This document shows, piece by piece, positions 22,877 through 49,647 of a DNA stretch of 64,000 bases. The DNA comes from Pasteuria penetrans (GTDB lineage Bacteria; Bacillota; Bacilli; Thermoactinomycetales; Thermoactinomycetaceae): the NCBI RefSeq assembly GCF_900538055.1, contig NZ_UZAC03000003.1, forward strand, positions 1-64,000, given 5' to 3'. Position numbers and translations under genes: made by a program. The notes below the pieces were generated by a model that saw only the letters and a program-made list of their open reading frames with translations, had not been told where the DNA came from and made no database searches. Position 1 is the first letter of the stretch. Each line of letters begins with the position of its first letter.

Positions 22877-23576
22877 TCGGAGATCATTCAGAGAACCGGA
22901 CTTCTGGGGGATTGGGAATGGGGGATTCGTGTCGTTTTCCCTTTTTGCCTTCTCCCCCCCCATAGAGGAGCTTTCTCTGCAATTGTTGTGAGCGAACTGA
23001 GGAGTTCTGGTGTATCCGTGATCACCCATCGTGGGGGGACACGGGTTGGACCATGGCCTGGGGTTGACACCACGGGAGTTGGGTATCCCCTTGTCATTAT
23101 GGAATTCCCCCCTTTTGGGAATCGACCGGGGGGAATTCGGATACCCCGGGCCGGCTTGTTGTTGACATATCATTCTTGGAGTGAAGCCCGTGGAATGTTG
23201 TGTTTGGGGAAACATGCGTTCGTTTTGTAATATTTCGATCAATAAGAAAGCAGGAGTGGGGTTTCAAATGGGGGGAAGATGAGGGTTTTGATCATGGCAA
23301 GGATTCCTTGTCCTATTTTTTAATTGAATACATCTATTTATTAATAAAGTTTTCTATTGCATGTATTTTTTTAGTAAATAGTATGTTATGATTGTTAGAG
23401 TAGCCAACACAGAGACTGAGGTGGGCGTGCCTAGACAACCGGTCAGTACCATCCATGCTTTGGACCCGACGTTCATGGGGTGAACCTACGTATATGGTGA
23501 TAAGACGGGGCATTGAAGTCCTACCCCGGATCAGGATACAATGGGAGCTGCGGTTGAGGGGTTCGGGGGGTTGATT
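22877..23576. other. non-coding gap between ymfJ and ymfK
   Basis: About 700 bases with an AT-rich patch at 23320-23400 and no supportable gene. In related genomes ymfJ and ymfK are usually closer together, so this looks like an insertion or expansion. Confidence 0.45.
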
Positions 23577-24344
23577 ATGGACGGCAGTGAGTGGTATTTG
23601 GAGTACGAAATCCATCAGGATCGACCCGGGTTGCTTGGTAATATTGCTTCGGCACTGGGTATGTTATCCATCAACATTCTGTCCATCAGTGGCATGGGTG
23701 AACGCAGGAGGGGGGTTCTCTTTTCTACGGGGAACAAGTCCAAGGTGGCTCTGTTGGAAAAGATTGTTTCCCAGGTGGATGACATTACGGTTACGGCCCT
23801 CCGCCCGCCTATTCTCGTGGATCGCTTGGCCATTCGACACGGTCGTGCTTTGGATAGTTGTTCGCAGGATCGCACGTATCGTTTTACGCGTGAGGAGTTG
23901 GGTCTACTCGTTGACTTCTTAGCTTCCATGCTACAACAGGGTGGTCATCAGTTGATCGGTTTGCGGGGGATGCCGCGTGTTGGTAAGACGGAATCGATTG
24001 TGGCGGCCAGCGTTTGTGCCAATAAGCGGTGGGTTTTGTTATCCTCTACGCTCCTACGCCGTACGATCTCCACTAGCTTAGAGGTGGATAGGGAGTCAGG
24101 AAGAAATGTGTATATCATCGACGGGGGGGTTTCGGCTCATCATGCGGATGAGCGTCATTCGGAATTGTTGCGTGAGGTACTTTGTTTGCAGGTGTCTAAG
24201 GTCATTGAGCATCCCGATATGTTTGTTCGCAATTCTTCCCTCACGATGAATGATTTCCACTGTTTGATTGAGCTGCGTAATCACCCTGATGAAATCATTA
24301 CATATGAGGCCTTGGAATCAGAGTTGGAGATGCGACATTGGTAA
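23577..24344 (+). CDS. ymfK: DUF3388 protein YmfK (ACT-like plus ATP-binding-like)
   Basis: A 255-residue homologue of YmfK (DUF3388). The N-terminal 75 residues look like an ACT regulatory fold (EWYLEYEIHQDRPGLLGNIASALGMLSINI); residues about 120-150 contain a P-loop-like GMPRVGKTES. The start ATG 23577 has GGGGGG six bases upstream and gives the conserved EWYLEYE start; the frame is open to 23541. The protein precedes the RodZ-like genes as in Bacillus. Biochemical role unknown. Confidence 0.85.
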   Translation: MDGSEWYLEYEIHQDRPGLLGNIASALGMLSINILSISGMGERRRGVLFSTGNKSKVALLEKIVSQVDDITVTALRPPILVDRLAIRHGRALDSCSQDRTYRFTREELGLLVDFLASMLQQGGHQLIGLRGMPRVGKTESIVAASVCANKRWVLLSSTLLRRTISTSLEVDRESGRNVYIIDGGVSAHHADERHSELLREVLCLQVSKVIEHPDMFVRNSSLTMNDFHCLIELRNHPDEIITYEALESELEMRHW

Positions 24345-24373: not shown

Positions 24374-25852
24374 GTGGACGTTGGAGAGCGCCTGCGAAAG
24401 GCAAGGGAAGCACGCGGTATGTTGCTTTCAGAGGCGGAGCGTGTCACGGGAATTCCGGAACGTCATTTATTGGTTATGGAACAGGGGCGTTTCGACTTGT
24501 TACCCAGCCCTAGGTACGTGCGTTCCTACCTACGTACCTATGCCAATGCCGTAGGGGAAAACCCGCAGGTTTTGTTAAAATTGTATCGGCCATGGGCGCA
24601 TCCCACCACGGAACCCCACGCCAAAAAAATTTTTGCTGTTGATTCAGATCAATCTGTGCCGGAACGGTCGTCCCAACGTTTGTCCTCCTCCCCCGCCCGT
24701 TTGCCGCGTCCCGCACGCTCCCACAAACCTGTTTCCGGCCTCCCCCCATCCGATTTCCCCCGGAGAGGAATGGAACTGCCCTTCCCATCCTCTCCTCGGC
24801 AGGGGGATGATGATGTATCCCGGCAGAGGGATGGTGATGTACCCCGGCAGGGGGATGGTGATGTACCCCGGCAGGGGGATGGTGATGTACCCCGGCAGGG
24901 GGATGGTGATGTACTTCGGCAGAGGGATGGCGATGTACCCCGGCGGAGGGATGGTGATGTACCCCGGCGGAGGGATGGTGATGTACCCCGGCAGGGGGAT
25001 GGTGATGTACCCCGGCAGGGGGATGGTGATGTACTTCGGCAGAGGGATGGCGATGTACCCCGGCGGAGGGATGGTGATGTACCCCGGCAGGGGGATGGTG
25101 ATGTACTCCAGCAGGGAGAGGGTGATGATGTACCCCGGCAGGATCCCCCCCGTCCCCCGGTGGATTCTGGTGGGTTTCCGCGACTCCCCCGTCGATCGCA
25201 GCAGCGATCACCTTGGCGGTCGCAACGAAAACCGTTGCAATCAGGACAAACCCAGCGGGTGCAACAGGCGTCACAGCGTCCACAACAGCATTCGCAACAG
25301 ACAACGCAGCCATTACGGCCGGTACGATCTCATCATCAGCCCCCATCCCAGTTTCGTCCATCGTCTGTTCAGGAGGATGATCCCTTGCCAGCAGCGGGGA
25401 GGAGGACCCGTGTTATTTATGCACGTCGTGTCCGTCATCATCGGGATCCGAAGGCAGAGGGTGGGGTAATGGGTAGAAGGGGGTCCGTTTTGGCTCGTCC
25501 TCCCAGGGATGAACCGGAGGTGCACCCGTCACGTGGTAGGGGGCGCTCAGGGGGCGAGGATTTATCGTCCTCGAATGCGGATAAGCAGTCCATGAGTCGT
25601 CGTCAGTCGCGGCGCATCCCCTCGGGGAAGAATCGGGGGGATACCAGGAAGAAACCGGGGAAATTTCTTGCGGTGGTTCTCTGGGTTGGTGGGGTCTTGT
25701 TCATGGTCTTTTCCCTTGCCTATATCGTCTATATGGTGAACAAGTCCAAGGGAAAGCCGGCGGTTCAGGGCATGATGATGATGGCCTATTTGGATCCTCC
25801 ACCCTCGCAGGAGTGGACGGAGGGGGGATCCGGTGATGAGTGGATCACATAG
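24374..25852 (+). CDS. ymfM: RodZ-like HTH membrane protein with 8-residue repeats (first of three)
   Basis: A 492-residue protein at the ymfM (rodZ) position. Residues 1-75 are the RodZ-type Xre HTH (VGERLRKAREARGMLLSEAERVTGIPERHLLVMEQG...PSPRYVRSYLRTYA) that contacts MreB in homologues. Residues 142-254 are fourteen copies of an octapeptide RQGDGDVP, then a Gln/Arg/Ser-rich stretch (about 270-330) and a basic linker. One membrane helix (FLAVVLWVGGVLFMVFSLAYIVYM) lies at about residues 435-460, leaving roughly 30 residues outside. RodZ normally has a folded external domain; here it is missing. GTG 24374 is preceded by GAGGGGAG. Two further RodZ-like genes follow immediately. The normal job is cell-elongation scaffolding. 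Confidence 0.82.
   Translation: MDVGERLRKAREARGMLLSEAERVTGIPERHLLVMEQGRFDLLPSPRYVRSYLRTYANAVGENPQVLLKLYRPWAHPTTEPHAKKIFAVDSDQSVPERSSQRLSSSPARLPRPARSHKPVSGLPPSDFPRRGMELPFPSSPRQGDDDVSRQRDGDVPRQGDGDVPRQGDGDVPRQGDGDVLRQRDGDVPRRRDGDVPRRRDGDVPRQGDGDVPRQGDGDVLRQRDGDVPRRRDGDVPRQGDGDVLQQGEGDDVPRQDPPRPPVDSGGFPRLPRRSQQRSPWRSQRKPLQSGQTQRVQQASQRPQQHSQQTTQPLRPVRSHHQPPSQFRPSSVQEDDPLPAAGRRTRVIYARRVRHHRDPKAEGGVMGRRGSVLARPPRDEPEVHPSRGRGRSGGEDLSSSNADKQSMSRRQSRRIPSGKNRGDTRKKPGKFLAVVLWVGGVLFMVFSLAYIVYMVNKSKGKPAVQGMMMMAYLDPPPSQEWTEGGSGDEWIT
24797..25135 (+). repeat. 24-bp tandem repeat inside ymfM (14 units)
   Basis: Fourteen consecutive in-frame 24-base units encoding R(Q/R)(G/R)DGDV(P/L), the last one base triplet longer. 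A higher-order pattern of about four units (RQGDGDVP, RQGDGDVL, RQRDGDVP, RRRDGDVP) recurs, indicating expansion by unequal exchange of blocks. Because the unit is a multiple of three and free of stops, the other frame and the opposite strand also stay open here. Confidence 0.95.
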
Positions 25853-25868
25853 GGGAGAAAAGATTTTG

Positions 25869-26627
25869 ATGGGGGGGTTTCTTTTGTCACGTGAAGGAAG
25901 TCATTCGGCCAATGATTCCGCTGGTTTTTTGGGACAAGGCCCCACTCCACAGCATAGTTCCCGATCTTTGGATTTTGCACCGTCACAGATGGGGTGTACT
26001 ATGGGCGATGTGGGGGGTGTTTTGTGCAAGGCGCGCAAATCATTGGGGCTTTCCCTAGATGAGTTGCAGCAAAAGACAGGGATTGAGAGATTGTTTTTGC
26101 AAGCTATTGAACAGGGGGAAATGGGGAATCTCCCGAGCCCGTTTTATACGCGGAATTTCTTGCGAAACTACGCAAAATGTGTACAGTTGGAACCCCATCG
26201 CATTTTGCGTCGTTATCGACGATATGAGCAGGCGGAGCGGGAAATAACAGGTAAGTGGCAGCGAATGGAGTTATCCCCTACAGGTACGGGACATGCGACG
26301 ATGGGAAGAGTCGTGTGTTCACAGTCTACCACGCGACACAGAACGGCTGTGGGTAGTGAAGGCGGATCTGATCCATGGACTCCTCCTACCCAACACGTTT
26401 TGTCACAACAGCGCCCTTCACGGGGGACATCCTCTTCTACAGACCCGCTGGGGCGCGGGAGAGCACCTTCCCCCTCCCGTCCCGCACAACAGACGCGTTT
26501 GCGCCGTGTGGATCGTTATCGTCAGGAGATGCAGGAACGTCAGTCCCGTGGTTGGTTAGTGGCGGCAGTGTTTTCATCCCTGTTGGCGATTGGATTGTTG
26601 ACAGCGGCTGTTTGGAATTTCCTTTAG
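25869..26627 (+). CDS. RodZ-like HTH membrane protein (second of three)
   Basis: About 252 residues. A RodZ-type HTH (GDVGGVLCKARKSLGLSLDELQQKTGIERLFLQAIEQGEMGNLPSPFYTRNFLRNYAK) starts at about residue 45, followed by a basic, Ser/Pro/Gln-rich linker and one C-terminal membrane helix (GWLVAAVFSSLLAIGLLTAAVWNF) ending the protein, so nothing is exposed outside. The start is uncertain: ATG 25869 has AGGGGAG upstream, but ATG 26001 sits right at the HTH where RodZ proteins normally begin. It starts just after the first rodZ-like gene ends. The same domain layout as its neighbours argues for tandem duplication; sequence divergence is high. Confidence 0.75.
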   Translation: MGGFLLSREGSHSANDSAGFLGQGPTPQHSSRSLDFAPSQMGCTMGDVGGVLCKARKSLGLSLDELQQKTGIERLFLQAIEQGEMGNLPSPFYTRNFLRNYAKCVQLEPHRILRRYRRYEQAEREITGKWQRMELSPTGTGHATMGRVVCSQSTTRHRTAVGSEGGSDPWTPPTQHVLSQQRPSRGTSSSTDPLGRGRAPSPSRPAQQTRLRRVDRYRQEMQERQSRGWLVAAVFSSLLAIGLLTAAVWNFL

Positions 26628-26707
26628 GTTCCAGGATGCGGGATCGTTGTAGTATGATAGGAGTAAAAATTCATGATATTCCTGAAGATTGAAGGGGGGT
26701 AGGGGAC

Positions 26708-27673
26708 GTGGGCTTGCACCTTCGAAGGGAGCGCCTGCGTCAGAAACGGAGCATCGAGGAAGTTTCTCACAGATTAGGGGTTCATCCTGCCGATGTTTGG
26801 GCTATCGAGGAAGAGAATATGGCACGATTTTCCGATTCAGCTACAGCCCGTCGTTTGCGTGAGTCCTATGAGAAACTTCTACAGGTAGGGGATTTGTCTG
26901 TGGCCCGCCCATCCTCTAGAAACCAGATCCCCATTGCGCCCCCTGAAATGTTGGTGGGTGGAGAACATCTTGGGAGGGGGAGGAGACGGCGGAGGGGAAG
27001 GAGGCCATCGTCCTGGAAGAGGTGGGGGACGATAGCGAGTGTGTTATTGTTGCTTGTTTTTGGGTTTGGATTAGCCCGTTTGTTGGACCAGAAAACGGAG
27101 CAGAAAAAGGATGCGGAGGCTCCTCCCCCTATCCCGCCATCTAGGAGTCCTCCCCCGCAATCGAATCCTACACAGGGTGGTGGGGTGCAGGTAAGGTTTC
27201 AATACAAGGATCGTGGTGTTAGTGTCTACTCCGTGGCGGGTGCCCAGGTCGTTACCGTGCGTGTTTCTTCCCTTCAAAAACCTATAAGGGTATCGATAGA
27301 TGCTTATCCGGAACGCACCCTATTGGCACGAAGCACAGCGCAGTCTAAGGCCCCTATTTCGGCCACCCATGTTAAGGGGATGATGGTCACCGTTAGTGAT
27401 ATTTCGCAAAGCCGCTTCACGGTCAATGATGTGGACATTGACGTAGGTACGGGACGCAACAAGGGTCGTATGCGGTATCTTTTTTGCCGGGAGGATTCCT
27501 GTCCTAAGCCTGGCACTAGTAGATCCAATAAGAGTAAGTCTGGTACTGGTGGCGATGGTAAGCGGGAAAATACAGGGGAGAAAAGCCCGGGGAAACAAAG
27601 GGCTGGTGAACGGGGTTCTAGTGGACGGAATGCCAGTGGGCGGGGGGCGGAAACAGAAGGGGAGCAGAGTTGA
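26708..27673 (+). CDS. RodZ-like HTH membrane protein with external domain (third of three)
   Basis: A 321-residue protein: N-terminal HTH (LHLRRERLRQKRSIEEVSHRLGVHPADVWAIEEENMARF), a poly-Arg stretch next to one membrane helix (WGTIASVLLLLVFGFGLARLL, about residues 106-126), a Pro-rich spacer, then about 110 residues with beta-rich character (VQVRFQYKDRGVSVYSV...VTVRVSSL...MMVTVSDISQSRFTVNDVDIDVG) resembling the external domain of RodZ, and a Gly/Ser/Lys-rich tail. Of the three it has the most canonical RodZ architecture and may be the working copy. GTG 26708 follows AAGGGGGGTAGGGGA. Confidence 0.78.
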   Translation: MGLHLRRERLRQKRSIEEVSHRLGVHPADVWAIEEENMARFSDSATARRLRESYEKLLQVGDLSVARPSSRNQIPIAPPEMLVGGEHLGRGRRRRRGRRPSSWKRWGTIASVLLLLVFGFGLARLLDQKTEQKKDAEAPPPIPPSRSPPPQSNPTQGGGVQVRFQYKDRGVSVYSVAGAQVVTVRVSSLQKPIRVSIDAYPERTLLARSTAQSKAPISATHVKGMMVTVSDISQSRFTVNDVDIDVGTGRNKGRMRYLFCREDSCPKPGTSRSNKSKSGTGGDGKRENTGEKSPGKQRAGERGSSGRNASGRGAETEGEQS

Positions 27674-27937
27674 CGAGGATGCCCTGGGGTATCCCACATG
27701 AATAGGGTATGGGGGTGATGGTGTTCCCGGTTGATGAAGGGGCGGTTGGGTTACGATTTGGATCGCCCGGAAATTGGGAGGGTATGGTAAAGGGAGTATT
27801 GAGTTTTTATGGATGGGTGGCTACAATGGGCAGAAGGGATTCATTTTTGTATGTTTCTTTTTTGTGGGTGTATGCCTCGTGGTTATAGAAAATGAGTACG
27901 ATATGTGTTGCTGTGCTTGTCTACCCCCTGGGGGTTG

Positions 27938-28516
27938 ATGGATGTGAACCTGGCCAATCAGTTGACGTTGCTGCGTATTCTCTTGGTTCCCCCACTTGTT
28001 CTTTTTCTCCTGATGCGTCCCCACCTTGGATTCATTCCAATAGGTGGTTGGTTGGTTAGCGTTGGGGATTTGTTGGCGACGTTCCTTTTTCTTGTGGCCG
28101 CTTGTACCGACGGTTTGGATGGGTATATTGCCCGCAAACGGGGAGCTGTGACGAGATTGGGGAAATTCCTCGATCCTCTAGCAGATAAGTTGTTGATCAC
28201 AGCTGTACTGATCCAGTTGGTGGAGATTGATCGTGTGGAGGCCTGGATGGCTATCATGATCATCAGCCGGGAGTTTGCTGTTATGGGTTTACGGCTTGTT
28301 GCTGCGGCCGAAGGAAAGATGGTAGTGGTTCACTGGCTTGGTAAGTGGAAAACATTGGTGCAAATTGTGGCTGTGGGTTCCCTGATGCTGGACAATACCC
28401 CGTTTTCATGGTGGGGTTTTCCCTTTGCCGATTATGCTATGTGGTTGGCTGTGATTGTGACGTTGATCTCCGGGTTTTATTATTTTTATAAAAATCGTAA
28501 ATTAGTCATGATGTAG
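27938..28516 (+). CDS. pgsA: CDP-diacylglycerol--glycerol-3-phosphate 3-phosphatidyltransferase
   Basis: A 192-residue membrane enzyme that makes phosphatidylglycerol phosphate, the committed step to phosphatidylglycerol and cardiolipin. The CDP-alcohol phosphatidyltransferase motif is complete: DGLDGYIARKRGAVTRLGKF continuing into LDPLADK. Four to five hydrophobic helices. Homologues begin NLxNxLTxxRI, so ATG 27938 or GTG 27944 is the start (GGGGG at 27930). Position between the RodZ-like genes and cinA matches Bacillus. Confidence 0.92.
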   Translation: MDVNLANQLTLLRILLVPPLVLFLLMRPHLGFIPIGGWLVSVGDLLATFLFLVAACTDGLDGYIARKRGAVTRLGKFLDPLADKLLITAVLIQLVEIDRVEAWMAIMIISREFAVMGLRLVAAAEGKMVVVHWLGKWKTLVQIVAVGSLMLDNTPFSWWGFPFADYAMWLAVIVTLISGFYYFYKNRKLVMM

Positions 28517-31615: not shown

Positions 31616-33031
31616 TTAGTCCCTGATACCGAGATCCTCCCGTGTCCACATTTTTGTAGTTTTGTCAGGCCCAGCGATGTGTATGGCTACAACAGAGTCG
31701 ATATTGGGTCCACCCTTACCCAAATCAGAGAAAGGGGGTACACGCAGGAAGGCTATTCCCACACGAGAACCCTCGGCAGCATACCTACCATCGGCGAGCA
31801 ATGCGTAAGAGTGGGTTCCCTTCCGGCTCCATTGTGTCAGAATATCTTTCCTCGTCCCCTTTTTTTGTTTCAAACAGGGTTGTTCATTCAATAAACCATA
31901 ATGGTTCTGGGAACAATTGGGTTGTACATCCATACTACGACCTGGTCCATATAGATGTTCCAGATAACCACCAGTGTTACCAACACTCGTAAGCTCGTTT
32001 GAACCTTCTTCTCTAGGGACTAGGTGGTGTCTGTAACGCGTAATGGGCTGTTTCCCCTCTGCTCGTAGTTTTGAATTTCTGAGTTCATATTCGTATCTAG
32101 CTTTTGCCTGTGCCAGGGCTGATTTTGCAAGATCCTCGTCCCATTTCAGTGCAGGGAAGGCCCTTAATTCGGATAGTAGGGGCTCTCCTCGTTTTGTATT
32201 GCTACGCTGTTGATTGATTTCGTCGAACATTTTACGGGCTTGCTCTTCCGAATTGCCCTCTTCAGAATGGGTTACCCTTTCCTTATCGTTATCCTTGGGT
32301 GGATGGATAGGTTTGGTTTCACGGTTGGAATCGAATTCATTGTTTGATTCCCGTTTGGATTGGGAGTTGTGGTTGTTGTCTGAATACTTTTTCCCCTGCT
32401 GGGATTCATTTTGGGTGTATGGGCTCCCGTTCTTGTCCTCTATTGCGTTCTTTGGCTTCTCAGTTAGAACCTCCTTTTTCTTTTCCATCCCTTGTTCCTT
32501 ATCGCTGTTCCCTTGTTCCTTATCGCTGTTCCCTTGTTCCTTCCCGCTGTTCCCTTGTTCATCGTCCAGATTTTCCCCATCGGAGGAACGGATCACAGCG
32601 GTTTTTCCGTTGGATTCTTTAACCTGTACATCCGTGATCGAGCTCCCTTTGGATTGATATGAGCATTCTGCTAGTTCGTGACCACTCTTTATTATTTTAT
32701 CCTTCAATTTATCGTTTATAGATTCTGTGGGTATGGGTTTCCAATAGTCCGTTTCTATGAGTTTGTCGCACCCTTTTTCCCCAGATCGTTTTCTTGGCGT
32801 ATGGTTTTTTTCATTCTCAGCATTTGTTGGTGTGGTACCCTGCTTGTTTTGTTCGTTATACGATGATGAAGGATCCTCTTTAATTTGTTTGCTTTCGCTT
32901 TCTTTTTTAGAATCTAGGTTGTGATTCAGCTGGGCGTTGGTGGATAGGGTGGGAGGAAGGAGTGTGAGCGTGGTGAGACCCATAACAAAGGGTATGGAGT
33001 AAAGGTTTTTTTTTTTCTCAATTTGTTTCAT
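31616..33031 (-). CDS. Secreted protein with C-terminal CAP-like domain
   Basis: A 471-residue predicted secreted protein. Residues 1-33 form a signal peptide (MKQIEKKKNLYSIPFVMGLT..., cleavage near TNA). Residues 34-270 are highly charged and low complexity, rich in Ser/Glu/Lys/Asn, with short repeats of GNS(G/D)KEQ. Residues 280-460 resemble a CAP/SCP-like domain (MFDEINQQR, FPALKWDEDLAKSALAQAKARYEY, later QWSRKGTHSYALL and SRVGIAFLR), a fold found in secreted spore and host-interaction proteins. The CAP assignment is tentative because the active-site His/Glu are not clearly placed. The start has a very strong AAAGGAGG six to ten bases upstream. It is the only supportable minus-strand gene in the window. 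Confidence 0.75.
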   Translation of the reverse strand: MKQIEKKKNLYSIPFVMGLTTLTLLPPTLSTNAQLNHNLDSKKESESKQIKEDPSSSYNEQNKQGTTPTNAENEKNHTPRKRSGEKGCDKLIETDYWKPIPTESINDKLKDKIIKSGHELAECSYQSKGSSITDVQVKESNGKTAVIRSSDGENLDDEQGNSGKEQGNSDKEQGNSDKEQGMEKKKEVLTEKPKNAIEDKNGSPYTQNESQQGKKYSDNNHNSQSKRESNNEFDSNRETKPIHPPKDNDKERVTHSEEGNSEEQARKMFDEINQQRSNTKRGEPLLSELRAFPALKWDEDLAKSALAQAKARYEYELRNSKLRAEGKQPITRYRHHLVPREEGSNELTSVGNTGGYLEHLYGPGRSMDVQPNCSQNHYGLLNEQPCLKQKKGTRKDILTQWSRKGTHSYALLADGRYAAEGSRVGIAFLRVPPFSDLGKGGPNIDSVVAIHIAGPDKTTKMWTREDLGIRD

Positions 33032-44139: not shown

Positions 44140-46668
44140 TTGATCATAGAGGGTGGTATATTGGTTGGGAGAGGATATACCCCTCTCTTACCTGATCGAC
44201 GGGACCAATGGGCGGTTTCCCTGGCTGGAAGCGCCTGGTTGGGAGTACTTTGGGTTGCATCTCTCCCCTTTTCCTTTGCGTGGATCGTTCCATTATTCTG
44301 TGGAATTTGTGGTGGAATGGTAGGTTTCTTTTCTAAAAAAAAATCCCTTCCATGGTATCGGATGGCGGCTTGCAGTTTGTGGGTGGCAGCCGTATTTTCT
44401 GGATGGTGGATTGTATCGGAGGAGGTATTCAATCAACCAGGACTTCCCCTGACAGGTAGGGGTAGACTGGTGATTGTGTTGGATGAGACGTTTTGGTGCA
44501 CTAGGGGAAGAAGTAGGGTACATGCTACCATAACCCATCGGGTGGTCCGAAAAGAGGGGACATGGTCCCCCCTTTCCGTCCCCACGGGGGCCAGTGTAGG
44601 GTTTCCCTGCCCCCCTTTATCACGGGGGTATATCCCTCCCCATGGGGGGGTGGGGGACGATTTTTTTTTGCCCCGTGGTACGGAGTTACAGTTGACAGGG
44701 CATTGGGGTCCGGCCCCCGGAGCCCGTAATCCGGGGGCCATAGATCTACGCTCCTATTTACGGCGTCATCGCGTTCATCTGTTGCTTTTTCCTGATCGAG
44801 ATGTCCCTATAACTTGGACGAGGGTACCCCCGATCCCCTGGGTCTGGGTGGATCATCTCCGCTTTATTCTGCGAACCCGCATCCAACAATGTTTCCCTCC
44901 CCCTCTGGCGGGTTTTGTTCTATCCATGATGTTGGGGGATAAGGGATTGCTTGATGTGGATACCAAACTCTCCTACACGTTGCTGGGTTTGGGCCACATT
45001 CTAACCGTTTCTGGTTTGCATGTAGGGTTTGTTATGGGTTTCATGGTCCTTTTGGGTAGGGGAATAGGGCTACCCCGGTGTGCGTATAGGACCCTTGCCG
45101 CCCTTGCTGTCCTTACCTTTGTACTTATATCGGGCGTCGGCCCCGCCGTCGTACGCGCAGGTGGAATGGCTATTCTCCTATTGATAGCGGATCAGAGGGG
45201 AGGCAGGTTTTCCCGACAGGCATGGGCCATTATGTTGGGAATGGCCTTACTTCTTCGCCCCCAATTGGCTTTGGATCTAGGTTTTCAGCTGAGCTATAGC
45301 GTTACCCTGGCCCTGTTGACTCTAGCACCGGCCCTCGCGGAACGATTCTCCCGGTTCCTCCGGTGTGGGTGTACGGTGATGGCCATTCAATGTTCCGCTC
45401 AATTGGTTTCCTTCCCACTGCTCATGACCCTCATGCCCGTTGTTTCTATATTCAGTTTACCCCTTAATCTTTTATTGGTTCCTATGCTAGGCATCCTTAT
45501 TTTTCCCCTTGCGGTGATCGTGCCTGCTGTGAGTTTTCTTTTTCCCATTGTAGCCATAAGGATGGGATATGCAATGGGTCATTATTTTTTCCTGTTGCAG
45601 AAATGGGTTCATGAGCTTTCTACCTTGCGGGGAACGCGAATGGTTCTACCCATTTCCCATCCTCTTTTGTTGGTTCCATGGTATTTGACGCTTTGTTATC
45701 TCCTCTGGTCCTGGTTACGATGGCCACGTGTGCGTAGTTTTCACAGAGTAGTGGGTTTGTCCTTAACCTTTGGTTTATTCGTTTTTTTCTCTGTGGTTCG
45801 TTTTCTCCCCCTCGCATCCGCTGAAGTGAGGATGACGGTATTGGATGTGGGGCAAGGAGATGCCCTAGTCTTGGAGTGGCCCGATGGGCGTGTATGGTTA
45901 GTAGATACAGGGGGAAGGTTTCATCGCAATGGTGAATTCCTTCCCCCTTCCTGGTTATCTACTGTATGGGATGCGGGTACGCAGGTGATCCTTCCCTTTC
46001 TTTGGAAACGAGGGATTGTCCAGATTGATATGCTCATTCTTACCCATGGAGATTTGGATCACATAGGGGGGGCAAGGAGTATAGCAGAATATCTCCCCAT
46101 TCGTTATCTGTTGCGCAATCCCCATCCCCCCTCGGTAGAGGAGAGGGAGTTGGTGGCATTTCTTCGGGGAAAAGGAACGAAAATCATAGAGGCTTCCCGT
46201 GGTTTGGGAGGTATGATAGGGCCTGGGATTCATTGGTATGTCTTGCACCCCCATAGAGAGTGGATTTCCCCTTCCATTAATGAGAGTAGTTTGGTACTAT
46301 CCCTCAACATCTATGGTCGACGTTTTCTCCTCACTGGGGATATAGAAGGTGGGGGTGAACAGGAGCTATTGAGTATAGAGGGGGATGATATTTCATCGAT
46401 CGATGTTCTTAAGGTAGCCCACCATGGTAGTAGGACCTCTACCCAGCAGGTGTGGGTGGATAGGACGAAACCTGTTTATGCGATCATTTCTGTTGGGGCG
46501 AACAACCGCTATGGTCATCCCGCCGAGGATGTGTTGGATCGGTTGGTTCGGCAGGGTACCATCGTTTTGCGTACGGATCAATATGGTGCGGTTACCCTTC
46601 GTATTCGTCCTGCTGGTTGGTCTATCACTGCTATGTTTCCCTATGGTGTGGGGGAGGAATCCCAATGA
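44140..46668 (+). CDS. comEC: ComEC/Rec2 DNA-uptake channel
   Basis: An 842-residue ComEC. N-terminal helices and an OB-like region (residues 100-230), the Competence domain of about eight membrane helices (FVLSMMLGDKGLL...LGLGHILTVSGLHVGF...GVGPAVVRAGGMAILLL, residues 265-540), then a metallo-beta-lactamase domain (VLDVGQGDALVLEWPDG, LILTHGDLDHIGG, LTGDIEGGGEQELL, VAHHGSRTST). It forms the inner-membrane channel for single-stranded DNA in transformation. comEA and comEB are not adjacent. TTG 44140 follows GAGG; a later TTG at 44161 is possible. Reading frame and motifs are intact. Confidence 0.92.
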   Translation: MIIEGGILVGRGYTPLLPDRRDQWAVSLAGSAWLGVLWVASLPFSFAWIVPLFCGICGGMVGFFSKKKSLPWYRMAACSLWVAAVFSGWWIVSEEVFNQPGLPLTGRGRLVIVLDETFWCTRGRSRVHATITHRVVRKEGTWSPLSVPTGASVGFPCPPLSRGYIPPHGGVGDDFFLPRGTELQLTGHWGPAPGARNPGAIDLRSYLRRHRVHLLLFPDRDVPITWTRVPPIPWVWVDHLRFILRTRIQQCFPPPLAGFVLSMMLGDKGLLDVDTKLSYTLLGLGHILTVSGLHVGFVMGFMVLLGRGIGLPRCAYRTLAALAVLTFVLISGVGPAVVRAGGMAILLLIADQRGGRFSRQAWAIMLGMALLLRPQLALDLGFQLSYSVTLALLTLAPALAERFSRFLRCGCTVMAIQCSAQLVSFPLLMTLMPVVSIFSLPLNLLLVPMLGILIFPLAVIVPAVSFLFPIVAIRMGYAMGHYFFLLQKWVHELSTLRGTRMVLPISHPLLLVPWYLTLCYLLWSWLRWPRVRSFHRVVGLSLTFGLFVFFSVVRFLPLASAEVRMTVLDVGQGDALVLEWPDGRVWLVDTGGRFHRNGEFLPPSWLSTVWDAGTQVILPFLWKRGIVQIDMLILTHGDLDHIGGARSIAEYLPIRYLLRNPHPPSVEERELVAFLRGKGTKIIEASRGLGGMIGPGIHWYVLHPHREWISPSINESSLVLSLNIYGRRFLLTGDIEGGGEQELLSIEGDDISSIDVLKVAHHGSRTSTQQVWVDRTKPVYAIISVGANNRYGHPAEDVLDRLVRQGTIVLRTDQYGAVTLRIRPAGWSITAMFPYGVGEESQ

Positions 46669-46839
46669 GTATGCCTATGGTTTAGTTGCACCCTCATCTG
46701 ATACTGATGCAGAAGAAAGTAGACTTTGAACAGGGGAATATGTAGAACATTGGAGGGATCCTATGGGGTTGGGCGACCGAAAAGGAGGAAAAAGTTCCTA
46801 TCCGTAGGGAGGGGGATTCTTGTGAACGAGGGTGAGAAT

Positions 46840-47167
46840 AGTGCCGATGATGGATTGCGTTCCCATGATCTGGAGGTTATTCCGTCTGTTTTTATGGTCC
46901 GAAGATCCGGCCCAATCTTCAGACCCTTTAGGTCCTACTTCGATTGTGGGGATGTTGCGCTTCGAGGTTCCGGTGACTTCCCCCCGTGGATCTTTCCGAT
47001 TTCCACCGGGCAGGGGTATTACCCTGCCTTTTCCTAGACCGCTCACTACCAGGGCTCTTTACCCCAGCAGCGCTAGGCGGTTGGAAACCAGCCACCTAAC
47101 CAGCCACCTACCAGCTGATTCCGAAGGTCCAGACAACCTTCATCTCTTGTACAACTTCTTGACACAC
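46840..47167 (-). ncRNA. structured-RNA-like repeat family, copy F (inverted)
   Basis: On the minus strand the segment starts with GTGTGTC at 47167, then AGTTGTACAAG..GAAGGTTGT as in copy D, then TTCCAACCGCCTAGCG(C)TGCTG and the TAGTGAGCGGTCTAGGAAAAGG block of copy C. Near 46930 it also carries CGAAGTAGGACCTAAA, identical to copy C at about 58661-58676. The piece lies next to repeat R3 copy 2 (47235-47390). No frame is preserved. Confidence 0.5.
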
Positions 47168-47234
47168 GTAGGCCAATCAATTCTCTTGCCATCCTTGTCC
47201 GTGCTCTGCCCTTTCCCTATCGCGCTATCTTCAC

Positions 47235-47390
47235 CTTGGCGTCCTGGAAACGACTCTTTATAAAGAACGAACCCTTCTTCACCCCATGATATGCAAGGAC
47301 CCTTTTCCTCCTCTTCAGAGGTTTGGCATCGCATTTGCTTGGTGAATTTATATCCCCTGCGGGTTCCCTCATGGAAAGGGTCCACCATCC
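47235..47390. repeat. dispersed repeat R3, copy 2
   Basis: Second copy of the segment at 36777-36895, longer by about 35 bases in the middle. It sits directly at the 5' side of RNA-like copy F, so that element may have inserted beside or into it. Confidence 0.6.
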
Positions 47391-47643
47391 TTTCTTTTCC
47401 TTCCCCCAGGTTTGGTATATGGGATGGATCGGGGGTTTTGCCGCCCGAGCACCAATGGATCTTTCCCTCCTCCCCCCCTCTACACCATCTTATCTTCCTA
47501 GAGGGTGCGGATAGCTCCCCTCAAGAGGTTGATCCGATATTTTATTGTGATTGGGGGTAGGGGTTGGTTTGGTTCTAGATGGGAAGGAAACAGGCATACC
47601 AATGAAAGACAACCTTGATTGGATTCTAGGGGGGTGCCTTTGT

Positions 47644-48354
47644 ATGCAGCCTGTGTCATGGAAGAGGAATCATGGGAATAAGGGTAGGGCCCTCTCTTAC
47701 GTTAGATCCCGCTCGACCCCGTGGGGTTCACCCCGTCCCCCGAGCCAGCTGCTGGCAGGAGGTAGACGATGGTTGCGTCGGCTGGGTGTACAGAGTATAC
47801 TGGTTCTCGTTTTGTCGGTATTCACCCTGGGAATCTTCCACATTCGTTCCCCCATAGTGCAACCTGTTACCTCCTGGCTTGTTGATTCCTTGCATAAGGA
47901 TATGAACTTTATTGCTGTAAAGGCATGGTACCAGAAAAATATTGGTTCCATACCCTCCTTTTTACCTGTTTTTTCTGAAATAACGGGTAGGTCTGCGGAA
48001 CCCAGGTCGGTTGTTACGCCCGCTTCATCAAGGACAGGGGTTCGGACGATTGCGAATAGGAGACCCTTTGTTAGTGTTTACTTACCAGCACGACAAAAAG
48101 TTAGTGTAACGCGCCCGGGTAAAGTGTTGTCGGTGGTCATGATTCCCCACGTCGGGTATCGGATGATGATTCAGCATGCCAATGATTGGGCCACCTGTCT
48201 GGAGGGCATACAAAACCCACATGTTAGGGTGCAGGATAAGGTTCGGGTAGGGCAGTCCCTAGGTGAGGGCGGTGAGGATGGCCATCTGGTGACACTTTCG
48301 GCATGGTACCAGGGTCGCCCAGTGGATTCTACGGGGTGGTTCTCCCTTGCCTAG
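47644..48354 (+). CDS. spoIVFA: SpoIVFA-like regulator of sigma-K processing
   Basis: A 236-residue protein at the spoIVFA position. A basic N-terminal cytosolic part (about 45 residues) is followed by one membrane helix (SILVLVLSVFTLGIFHI) and an external domain with a degenerate M23/LytM-like fold (YLPARQKVSVTRPGKVLSVVMIPHVGYRMMIQHANDWATCLEGI...VRVQDKVRVGQSLGEGGEDGHLVTLSAWYQGRPVD). SpoIVFA anchors and restrains the SpoIVFB protease in the outer forespore membrane. ATG 47644 is chosen because AGGGGGG is nine bases upstream. It overlaps spoIVFB by eight bases. Confidence 0.85.
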   Translation: MQPVSWKRNHGNKGRALSYVRSRSTPWGSPRPPSQLLAGGRRWLRRLGVQSILVLVLSVFTLGIFHIRSPIVQPVTSWLVDSLHKDMNFIAVKAWYQKNIGSIPSFLPVFSEITGRSAEPRSVVTPASSRTGVRTIANRRPFVSVYLPARQKVSVTRPGKVLSVVMIPHVGYRMMIQHANDWATCLEGIQNPHVRVQDKVRVGQSLGEGGEDGHLVTLSAWYQGRPVDSTGWFSLA

Positions 48355-49312
48355 GTACCCCTGGCCCTGGCAGGGAATTCGGGTTACTATACATCCCCTG
48401 CTGATGGCGATGATTGTTCTTTCTGTATGGACGGGTCATCATCTTGAGATAGCAACCCTAATGGTATTGTTGGTGGTTCACGAATTGGGGCATGTTACGG
48501 CGGCTTGGTCCTATGGTTGGAGGATTACCGCGCTTCATTTCCTTCCCTTTGGCGGGGTTGCTGAGGTGGATGATCATGGTTACACCCACTGGCAACAGGA
48601 AATCGTGGTAGCCCTGGCGGGTCCCTTTTATCATTTGCTACTGATAGCTATGGGTTTCGGTTTACAGACGGTACTCGAATCCATGGATTGGGGGTACAGG
48701 GACCCGGGGGGATTCAGTTTGTATTTTGTTTATTGTAATATTTTCCTAGCCTCATTCAATCTTTTGCCTGTTTATCCGTTGGATGGTGGTCGTATTGTAC
48801 AGGCACTATTGAGCTTGTGCATGCCCTGGCGCCGGGCTTGGATTTGGACCCTTTGCATTAGTATGCTGGGCGTTTTTGTCCTTCTTGTTCTGGCTTTTTC
48901 GATACAGAGAACGGGGGTTGCTTGGCATTTTGTGGGTATTGCGGTTTTCTTGGGGTTGGCTAATTGGCGGGCTATACGCGACTCATACTATCGTCAATTA
49001 CGTTTTTTGCTGTATCGCTTCGTGCACGGTCCCCCTCCCCGTGCAACCCCGGTGACGTTATGTCCCGATCCATCGGCCACGGTGGAGCAGGTATTACAGC
49101 TGTTATATCGTGAACGACATCATATGATTCTTATTCCCTCCACAAGGTATGGTACATTGGCGGTCATGGAGGCCTCCTTGCTGAAGTGGTACTTCAGAAA
49201 TCGTAGTATGGCTTTTCCCTTGCGTGATTTGCTCCTCTCATGGTACACTCAGGGGAGATCTTGCTTTGTTCGGCGAGGGGTGAAGGGAAACAGGGAAAAG
49301 GAGGTCATTTGA
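48347..49312 (+). CDS. spoIVFB: Intramembrane metalloprotease SpoIVFB
   Basis: A 321-residue site-2-type protease that cleaves pro-sigma-K during sporulation. The zinc site HELGH lies in a membrane helix ([20 protein letters not shown]) and the third ligand Asp in [15 protein letters not shown]. About six hydrophobic helices are followed by a C-terminal CBS-like part ([27 protein letters not shown]) that senses ATP in the B. subtilis protein. TTG 48347 is inside the end of spoIVFA, implying coupled translation. The stop is only five bases before rplU. Confidence 0.93.
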
Positions 49313-49317
49313 GAGGT

Positions 49318-49647
49318 ATGTATGCTATAGTAGAAACGGGTAGCAAGCAGTACAGGGTTGAAGAGGGCAGGTATATCGACGTCGAGAAGCTGCCGGTTGA
49401 AGTAGATCATGAGGTTCGTTTGGATCAGGTGGTGTTGTTGGCCCCATCGGGAGAACAATGCCAAGTAGGGGTTCCTTATGTAGAGAGTGCGTCTGTGGTT
49501 GCGAAGGTGGTGCACCATGGTCGTGGTAAGAAGGTTGTAGTGTTCAAACATAAGCCCAAGACCAATTACTACATGCGGAAGCAAGGACATCGCCAGGGAT
49601 ATACTCGTCTTATGGTCGAGCGTATTGAGATTGGGAAGGCTACTTAG
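49318..49647 (+). CDS. rplU: 50S ribosomal protein L21
   Basis: A 109-residue L21: [17 protein letters not shown], then the beta-barrel region and [26 protein letters not shown] 49318 is the canonical start. AGGAGG at 49299-49304 would suit TTG 49309 better (four extra codons), so either may be used. Because spoIVFB ends at 49312, there is no room for the L21 leader RNA that regulates rplU in many Bacillota. Confidence 0.95.

Follow-up and report, generated by a model that had tools for sequence, protein, structure and literature searches.

Tandem RodZ-like genes between ymfK and pgsA in Pasteuria penetrans and the order Thermoactinomycetales, with loss of the MreB contacts in one gene class

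RodZ is usually understood through MreB, for whose binding a pair of aromatic residues is critical, F60 and Y64 in the E. coli protein and Y66 and F70 in chlamydial RodZ (PMC4047632). The chlamydial protein, CT009, is described in the same paper as having a helix-turn-helix (HTH) domain without a large outer domain. In B. subtilis the weight of RodZ (YmfM) is disputed, the gene having first been called essential and mutants later reported as viable with mild shape defects (PMC8631317), and the protein is reported to interact with the cytosolic part of SpoIIE and to be recruited to the asymmetric septum (PMC4945075). The elongation proteins listed for S. pneumoniae in PMC11980242 are RodZ, RodA, PBP2b, MreC and MreD, MreB not being in that list, while the account of Neisseriaceae and Moraxellaceae in PMC4498754 has mreBCD and rodA lost together, with rodZ disappearing too. 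Here we describe three adjacent RodZ-like genes of Pasteuria penetrans (Thermoactinomycetaceae), located in a window of 64,000 nucleotides (assembly GCF_900538055.1, contig NZ_UZAC03000003.1, positions 1 to 64,000 of the forward strand). They belong to a tandem family of up to four classes (A to D) that is old in the order Thermoactinomycetales. No class D gene read in an MreB-less genome has an intact aromatic pair, some having lost the whole HTH, and in classes A to C the pair is mostly retained whether MreB is there or not.

The window shares with Bacillus RodZ the position between ymfK and pgsA, the HTH_25 domain and the single membrane helix, and the beta-rich outer domain of the Bacillus protein is found as well in class D. 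In contrast to Bacillus, there are three to four such genes, not one; the window genome lacks MreB, two of its three copies lack an outer domain, and its class D copy lacks the MreB-contact pair. CT009, as described, resembles the second gene of the window and many class A and B copies of MreB-less genomes in having no large outer domain, but Chlamydia has MreB, which CT009 binds through the aromatic pair. Streptococci are not known to have MreB; MreC and MreD are kept there, whereas the window genome lacks MreC and has several RodZ-like genes. Unlike in the Neisseriaceae and Moraxellaceae as reported, rodZ-like genes stay here despite the loss of the elongation machinery. Among open-licence papers (titles and abstract openings), none was found on RodZ or MreB in Thermoactinomycetaceae, or on several RodZ paralogues per genome.

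The array and its two conserved neighbours comprise the following features of the window:

23541..24344, forward strand: ymfK (ACT and DUF3388), conserved left neighbour (Pfam DUF3388, 1.3e-72)
24374..25852, forward strand: RodZ-like gene 1, class B, with HTH, 358-residue Arg/Pro/Asp-rich linker, membrane helix and 43-residue tail (HTH_25, 61.9 bits)
24389..24568, forward strand: HTH of gene 1, with MreB-contact pair Y48/Y52, both aromatic
24797..25141, forward strand: linker repeat of gene 1, a 24-base unit encoding an octapeptide, in 14.2 copies (Tandem Repeats Finder, 88% matches)
25664..25720, forward strand: membrane helix of gene 1, residues 431-449 (hydropathy)
25833..26627, forward strand: RodZ-like gene 2, class C, with HTH, 112-residue linker and C-end membrane helix (HTH_25, 67.3 bits)
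26022..26201, forward strand: HTH of gene 2, with MreB-contact pair Y/F, both aromatic
26556..26612, forward strand: membrane helix of gene 2, residues 242-260 of the open reading frame, with the stop 4 residues later (hydropathy)
26708..27673, forward strand: RodZ-like gene 3, tentatively class D, with degenerate HTH, membrane helix and beta-rich outer domain (HTH_25, 31.1 bits)
26720..26887, forward strand: HTH of gene 3, with the MreB-contact pair replaced by T46/L50
27017..27091, forward strand: membrane helix of gene 3, residues 104-128 in the AlphaFold2 model (108-126 by hydropathy)
27188..27490, forward strand: predicted outer beta domain of gene 3, ten strands, residues 161-261 (AlphaFold2 model; no Pfam match)
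27905..28516, forward strand: pgsA, conserved right neighbour (TIGR00560, 172 bits)

A first-pass annotation, made from the sequence alone, had proposed three RodZ-like genes at this place, and the open reading frames are present, each with an HTH_25 domain above the Pfam cut-off of 24.6 bits (E values of 5e-17, 1e-18 and 2e-7 for genes 1, 2 and 3) and with one hydrophobic helix after it by hydropathy. They are the sole HTH_25 matches above the cut-off in the 2.52 Mb genome. The HTH of gene 1 matches three solved relatives by sequence (3fym, 7e-10; 2wus chain R, 1e-6; CT009, 4gqm, 6e-4), while that of gene 3 is far more divergent than those of genes 1 and 2. The start of gene 2 is uncertain, as the GTG at 25833 puts 56 residues ahead of an in-frame ATG at 26001.

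Beyond the HTH the three products differ. The annotation counted 14 octapeptide repeats in gene 1, correctly, but took them for its outer part; they encode residues ∼141-256, between the HTH and the membrane helix, so that if the topology is RodZ-like the repeat lies on the cytoplasmic side, as a linker, and the outer part is the 43-residue tail. A 283-residue open frame opposite gene 1 (window 24510-25361, reverse strand) spans the 24-base repeat and was not treated as a gene. Gene 2 ends at its membrane helix, as had been said. The RodZ-like beta-rich outer domain attributed to gene 3 is beta-rich in the model, but it does not match RodZ_C (PF13464): a Pfam scan of the window proteins gave no RodZ_C match in genes 1, 2 or 3, and the outer domain of gene 3 searched alone against Pfam gave none at all. 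At the place of RodZ_C, gene 3 has the modelled beta-rich domain and genes 1 and 2 have just 43 and 4 residues. Over the order, RodZ_C is matched at E 0.01 in 72 of the 137 scanned RodZ-cluster proteins (out of 141, the four proteins of locus L052 being left out). The AlphaFold2 model of gene 3 (alignment of 50 sequences) has a mean predicted local distance difference test score (pLDDT) of 74.7 and a predicted template modelling score of 0.43, with pLDDT block means of 90-96 over residues 161-240 and 78-83 beyond. Foldseek gave no match of this model against the PDB at E 0.001; on re-alignment of the top chains, the best for the HTH was S. aureus YmfM (3fym; Z 10.7, root-mean-square deviation 1.9, 68 residues), and the outer domain gave weak beta-sandwich matches alone (Z ≤4.4).

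The order sample consisted of 42 genomes including the window genome, and the locus was taken from 40 of the 41 others, giving 41 loci. Not among them is genome G034, which is 67% complete and has its cluster on two separate contigs; its fragments were read later, and its class D pair is Y, I. HTH-bearing RodZ-like genes number four in 19 loci, three in 17, two in 3 and one in 2, both single-gene loci being those of the two genomes of family f2. The remaining 39 of the 41 thus hold two to four HTH genes, always in the order A, B, C, D, between shared flanks (ymfI, DUF3243 and ymfK, then the array, then pgsA and cinA; the L043 and L049 stretches show no pgsA or cinA). YmfK gives a single match per genome in 42/42 genomes, and a pgsA match was looked for in viral contigs, with none found. 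The loci L091 (Lihuaxuella) and L038 have identical lengths in all four genes, which suggests that the sampled order is the one to which Thermoactinomycetaceae belong. Outside the sample, named loci were taken as the best 80 of 549 confirmed relatives found through YmfK; among these 80, one HTH gene lies between ymfK and pgsA in 73/73 loci outside Thermoactinomycetaceae, and three or four in 7/7 loci within it. The view that one RodZ gene is usual therefore holds for these 73 named loci of other families and fails in Thermoactinomycetales. Since separate HTH genes recur at the same positions in relatives, genes 1-3 are not frame-error artefacts. Four RodZ-like genes are present both in Shimazuella kribbensis DSM 45090, which has no MreB, and in Thermoactinomyces vulgaris DSM 43016, which has it.

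The classes were drawn from a tree of 135 HTHs together with class models, A to D following gene order, and in a leave-clade-out test 130 of 132 genes fall into their positional class. Class D takes in the single-copy RodZ of family f2. The positional class was kept for the middle gene of L062, whose model score favors C over B (114.7 against 108.2 bits), and for the single gene of L065 (A 97.5 over D 94.8), both going against position. In the window, gene 1 scores 104.1 bits with the class B model (75.4 with the next) and gene 2 scores 111.1 bits with that of class C (83.6 with the next), lying inside the starred 23-row C set of the HTH tree. Gene 3, a very long branch in that tree, scores highest with class D by a small margin (30.5 bits against 25.7 for B), and class A is missing from the window array. 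This sorting leaves the arrays of family f3 without a C; seven loci in six f3 genomes (L171-L177) encode a further B- or C-like RodZ protein away from it, of 410-544 residues from stop to stop. The tandem family A to D is old in the order, and three of its classes, B, C and D, are represented in the window. Duplication followed by specialization, as first suggested, is supported by class models, tree and synteny, though not as a peculiarity of this genome, since it is old and order-wide; a recent duplication here is rejected by the class models and, less firmly, by the tree.

Profile searches found neither MreB nor MreC in the window genome, its one MreB_Mbl match (57.5 bits) being DnaK (951 bits to the DnaK model). 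Within the order, MreB is present in 24 of the 42 genomes and absent from 18 (16 when only the 40 genomes of 90% completeness or more are counted), and MreC is absent from the same 18. Three SEDS proteins are found in 23 of the 24 genomes with MreB (G023 has four matches, two of which look like one split gene), and two in each of the 16 MreB-less genomes of 90% completeness or more; the other two, of poor completeness, show 0 and 1. MreB, MreC and the third SEDS protein are gone from the same genomes and thus represent a joint loss from the Rod system, seen in this genome and other lineages alike, that spared the RodZ-like genes; parsimony on a six-protein genome tree puts the number of MreB state changes at six. 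The third SEDS gene adjoins another SEDS gene in several relatives. Nineteen genomes of the same class from other families (G042-G060) were used for HTH_25, MreB and MreC searches only; two of them, G045 and G050, have no full MreB match yet keep MreC, unlike the order, where both go.

The place from which the mre genes are missing can be recognized by comparison with relative L180, where the gene order is maf, radC, mreB, mreC, mreD, minC, minD, M23, M50, rplU (radC, mreB, mreD, minC and minD labelled by Pfam, mreC by place, maf by eye and the rest by tblastn matches):

46669..49647, forward strand: mreBCD site of a relative, empty here, with comEC and then M23 (47551), M50 (48347) and rplU (49240) (L180 comparison)

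A tblastn search of the window (E up to 1) with eleven L180 proteins recovers M23, M50, rplU and rpmA but gives no match to maf, radC, mreB, mreC, mreD, minC or minD; for maf, radC and minCD the search covered the window alone. The place of the missing maf-radC-mreBCD-minCD block falls within 44140-49647. An assembly gap is rejected as the cause of the missing MreB, because the contig continues on both sides of the mre site, whose neighbours, but none of the mre genes, are recovered by tblastn. With MreB and MreC absent, the proposed role in organizing elongation with MreB cannot apply here, and any MreB-based role is excluded for the genome as assembled. Elsewhere in the window, a 471-residue protein (31616-33031, reverse strand) carries short EQGNSDK-type repeats and has no Pfam match at E 0.001.

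The two columns corresponding to the MreB-contact pair were read in every HTH, matched by motif and a spacing of four. In class D both residues are aromatic in 19 of 22 HTHs from genomes with MreB, against 0 of 11 from genomes without it; when D genes without an HTH are counted as broken, D is intact in 19/24 and 0/15, respectively (the L043 stretch ends before the D position, and L040 has no D gene). The other classes keep the pair with and without MreB: 22/22 and 13/13 in class A, 20/22 and 17/17 in class B, and 12/12 and 14/16 in class C. If the middle gene of L062 is taken as C, the MreB-less counts become 16/16 for B and 15/17 for C. The window repeats this pattern, the pair being aromatic in genes 1 and 2 and T46/L50 in gene 3. 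In a likelihood test of correlated evolution (own script, run on a quick tree with midpoint or f2 root and seven unsupported forks), class D is associated with MreB at p 0.0003, or 0.0009 without the window, 0.0010 without the window and rooted on f2, 0.0014 with HTH-bearing D genes only, and 0.0006 with the missing D of L040 taken as broken. No association is found for B (p 0.48) or C (p 0.43), and A is invariant. Without correction for kinship, Fisher's test yields 8e-7 for D.

The outer parts also differ by class. Outer parts shorter than 50 residues occur in class B in 13/17 copies without MreB versus 2/22 with it, in class A in 6/13 versus 0/22, in class C in 1/16 (gene 2 of the window) versus 0/12, and in HTH-bearing class D in 0/11 and 0/22. 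In genomes that have lost the Rod system, the inner part thus tends to survive in A and B, and the outer part in D. The window is the end point of this trend: B and C have inner parts only, and in D the outer domain is sound and the HTH ruined. Six loci (L042, L044, L054, L057, L067 and L070) have an extra gene with helix and outer part and no HTH, recognized by eye and in L042 confirmed by RodZ_C. In L067 and L070, from MreB-bearing genomes of family f5, the D gene has no HTH while the sister locus L063 keeps it, an HTH loss that loss of MreB does not explain.

The reading that we favor, and regard as probable, is that class D is the MreB-linked RodZ, decaying after MreB loss, and that A to C are membrane adaptors with another, candidate partner. 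D would once have served MreB and, after its loss, would survive mainly for the outer domain. A to C would be membrane-anchored adaptors holding the HTH at the tip of a long, probably disordered cytoplasmic linker (median linker lengths in MreB-bearing genomes are 166, 168.5, 241.5 and 55 residues for A, B, C and D); the HTH would grip another cytoplasmic partner, from the division, hyphal-growth or sporulation machinery, and bring this still-present partner to the remaining wall-making enzymes. In the window, B and C, having no outer domain, would act inside only, and of D just the outer domain would be in good order. Candidate partners are SpoIIE, because B. subtilis RodZ interacts with it, FtsA, because it is an actin relative, and, for hyphal growth, DivIVA, by analogy with what is described for actinomycetes; DivIVA is found in 41/42 genomes of the order. 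A role of the array in sporulation is possible, SpoIIE, the reported RodZ partner in B. subtilis, being present in 42/42 genomes of the order. A stronger form, quite conceivable though short of probable, would make A to C a separate morphogenetic system split from RodZ, its HTH acting on a non-MreB partner and serving hyphal growth or sporulation without a Rod complex, with the repeated loss of MreB as a natural experiment separating both functions.

Several points weigh against the decay of D and the adaptor role of A to C as just set out. A broken D is found in five MreB-bearing genomes (L045, L069, L071 and the HTH-less L067 and L070), so that the link between decay of D and loss of MreB is not a strict one. 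The placement of gene 3 in class D is weak by its score and leans also on position and outer domain; gene 1 is placed in B without a starred branch in the HTH tree, and in the genome tree the branch leading to the window genome is very long. An independent-pairs test yields 3 pairs on well-supported branches (a mean of 2.5 in line with expectation, 0 against) and cannot reach significance; the likelihood test was written because these pairs are too few. Association of outer-part loss with MreB is suggestive only (p 0.07 for B, 0.08 for A, in the correlated-evolution test). A to C may bind MreB where it is present, their pair could be kept for folding, and the partners named for them are candidates that we infer.

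Other explanations account for parts of the same data. The persistence of the array could reflect relaxed constraint, all three genes being leftovers of the lost elongation system that decay at unequal speeds, which would suit the divergence of the window proteins, the degenerate HTH of D, the frequent loss of A and B outer domains without MreB and the broken pair of two MreB-less class C copies. We hold this to be distinctly unlikely, as the genes are all long open frames, the aromatic pair is kept in 44/46 MreB-less A-C HTHs despite six changes of MreB state, and class C HTHs average 72% identity between MreB-less genomes (window left out). Retention of the pair with and without MreB would also be expected if A to C, as RodZ copies, bound MreB in the relatives that have it and, besides, another member of the actin family such as FtsA, which would be the only one left here; the folds of MreB and FtsA are kin, given an FtsA-family match (E 7e-12) of the MreB of one relative, and such dual binding would be a minor possibility.

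About as improbable, in our estimate, is a sporulation module in which, by analogy with B. subtilis, the RodZ-like proteins would work with SpoIIE at the asymmetric septum and so persist without MreB: SpoIIE_N is found in 42/42 genomes of the order, but for that very reason its presence does not discriminate, and Bacillus manages with one RodZ. Finally, the HTH of A to C might act on DNA, making these proteins membrane-bound transcription regulators, as the gene 3 model has structural matches to SinR, HipB and further DNA binders with a similar HTH fold; yet HTH_25 is the best Pfam family for all three products, and the residues retained are those that PMC4047632 names as the protein-contact pair in E. 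coli and Chlamydia, which leaves this very unlikely.

The comparison supports an array more general than the window alone could reveal, order-wide and with class D losing its MreB contacts. In an order with up to four RodZ paralogues and several losses of MreB, comparison alone can sort the residues serving MreB, which decay in D, from paralogues with other roles, and RodZ function beyond MreB becomes directly testable in named strains such as S. kribbensis DSM 45090 and T. vulgaris DSM 43016.

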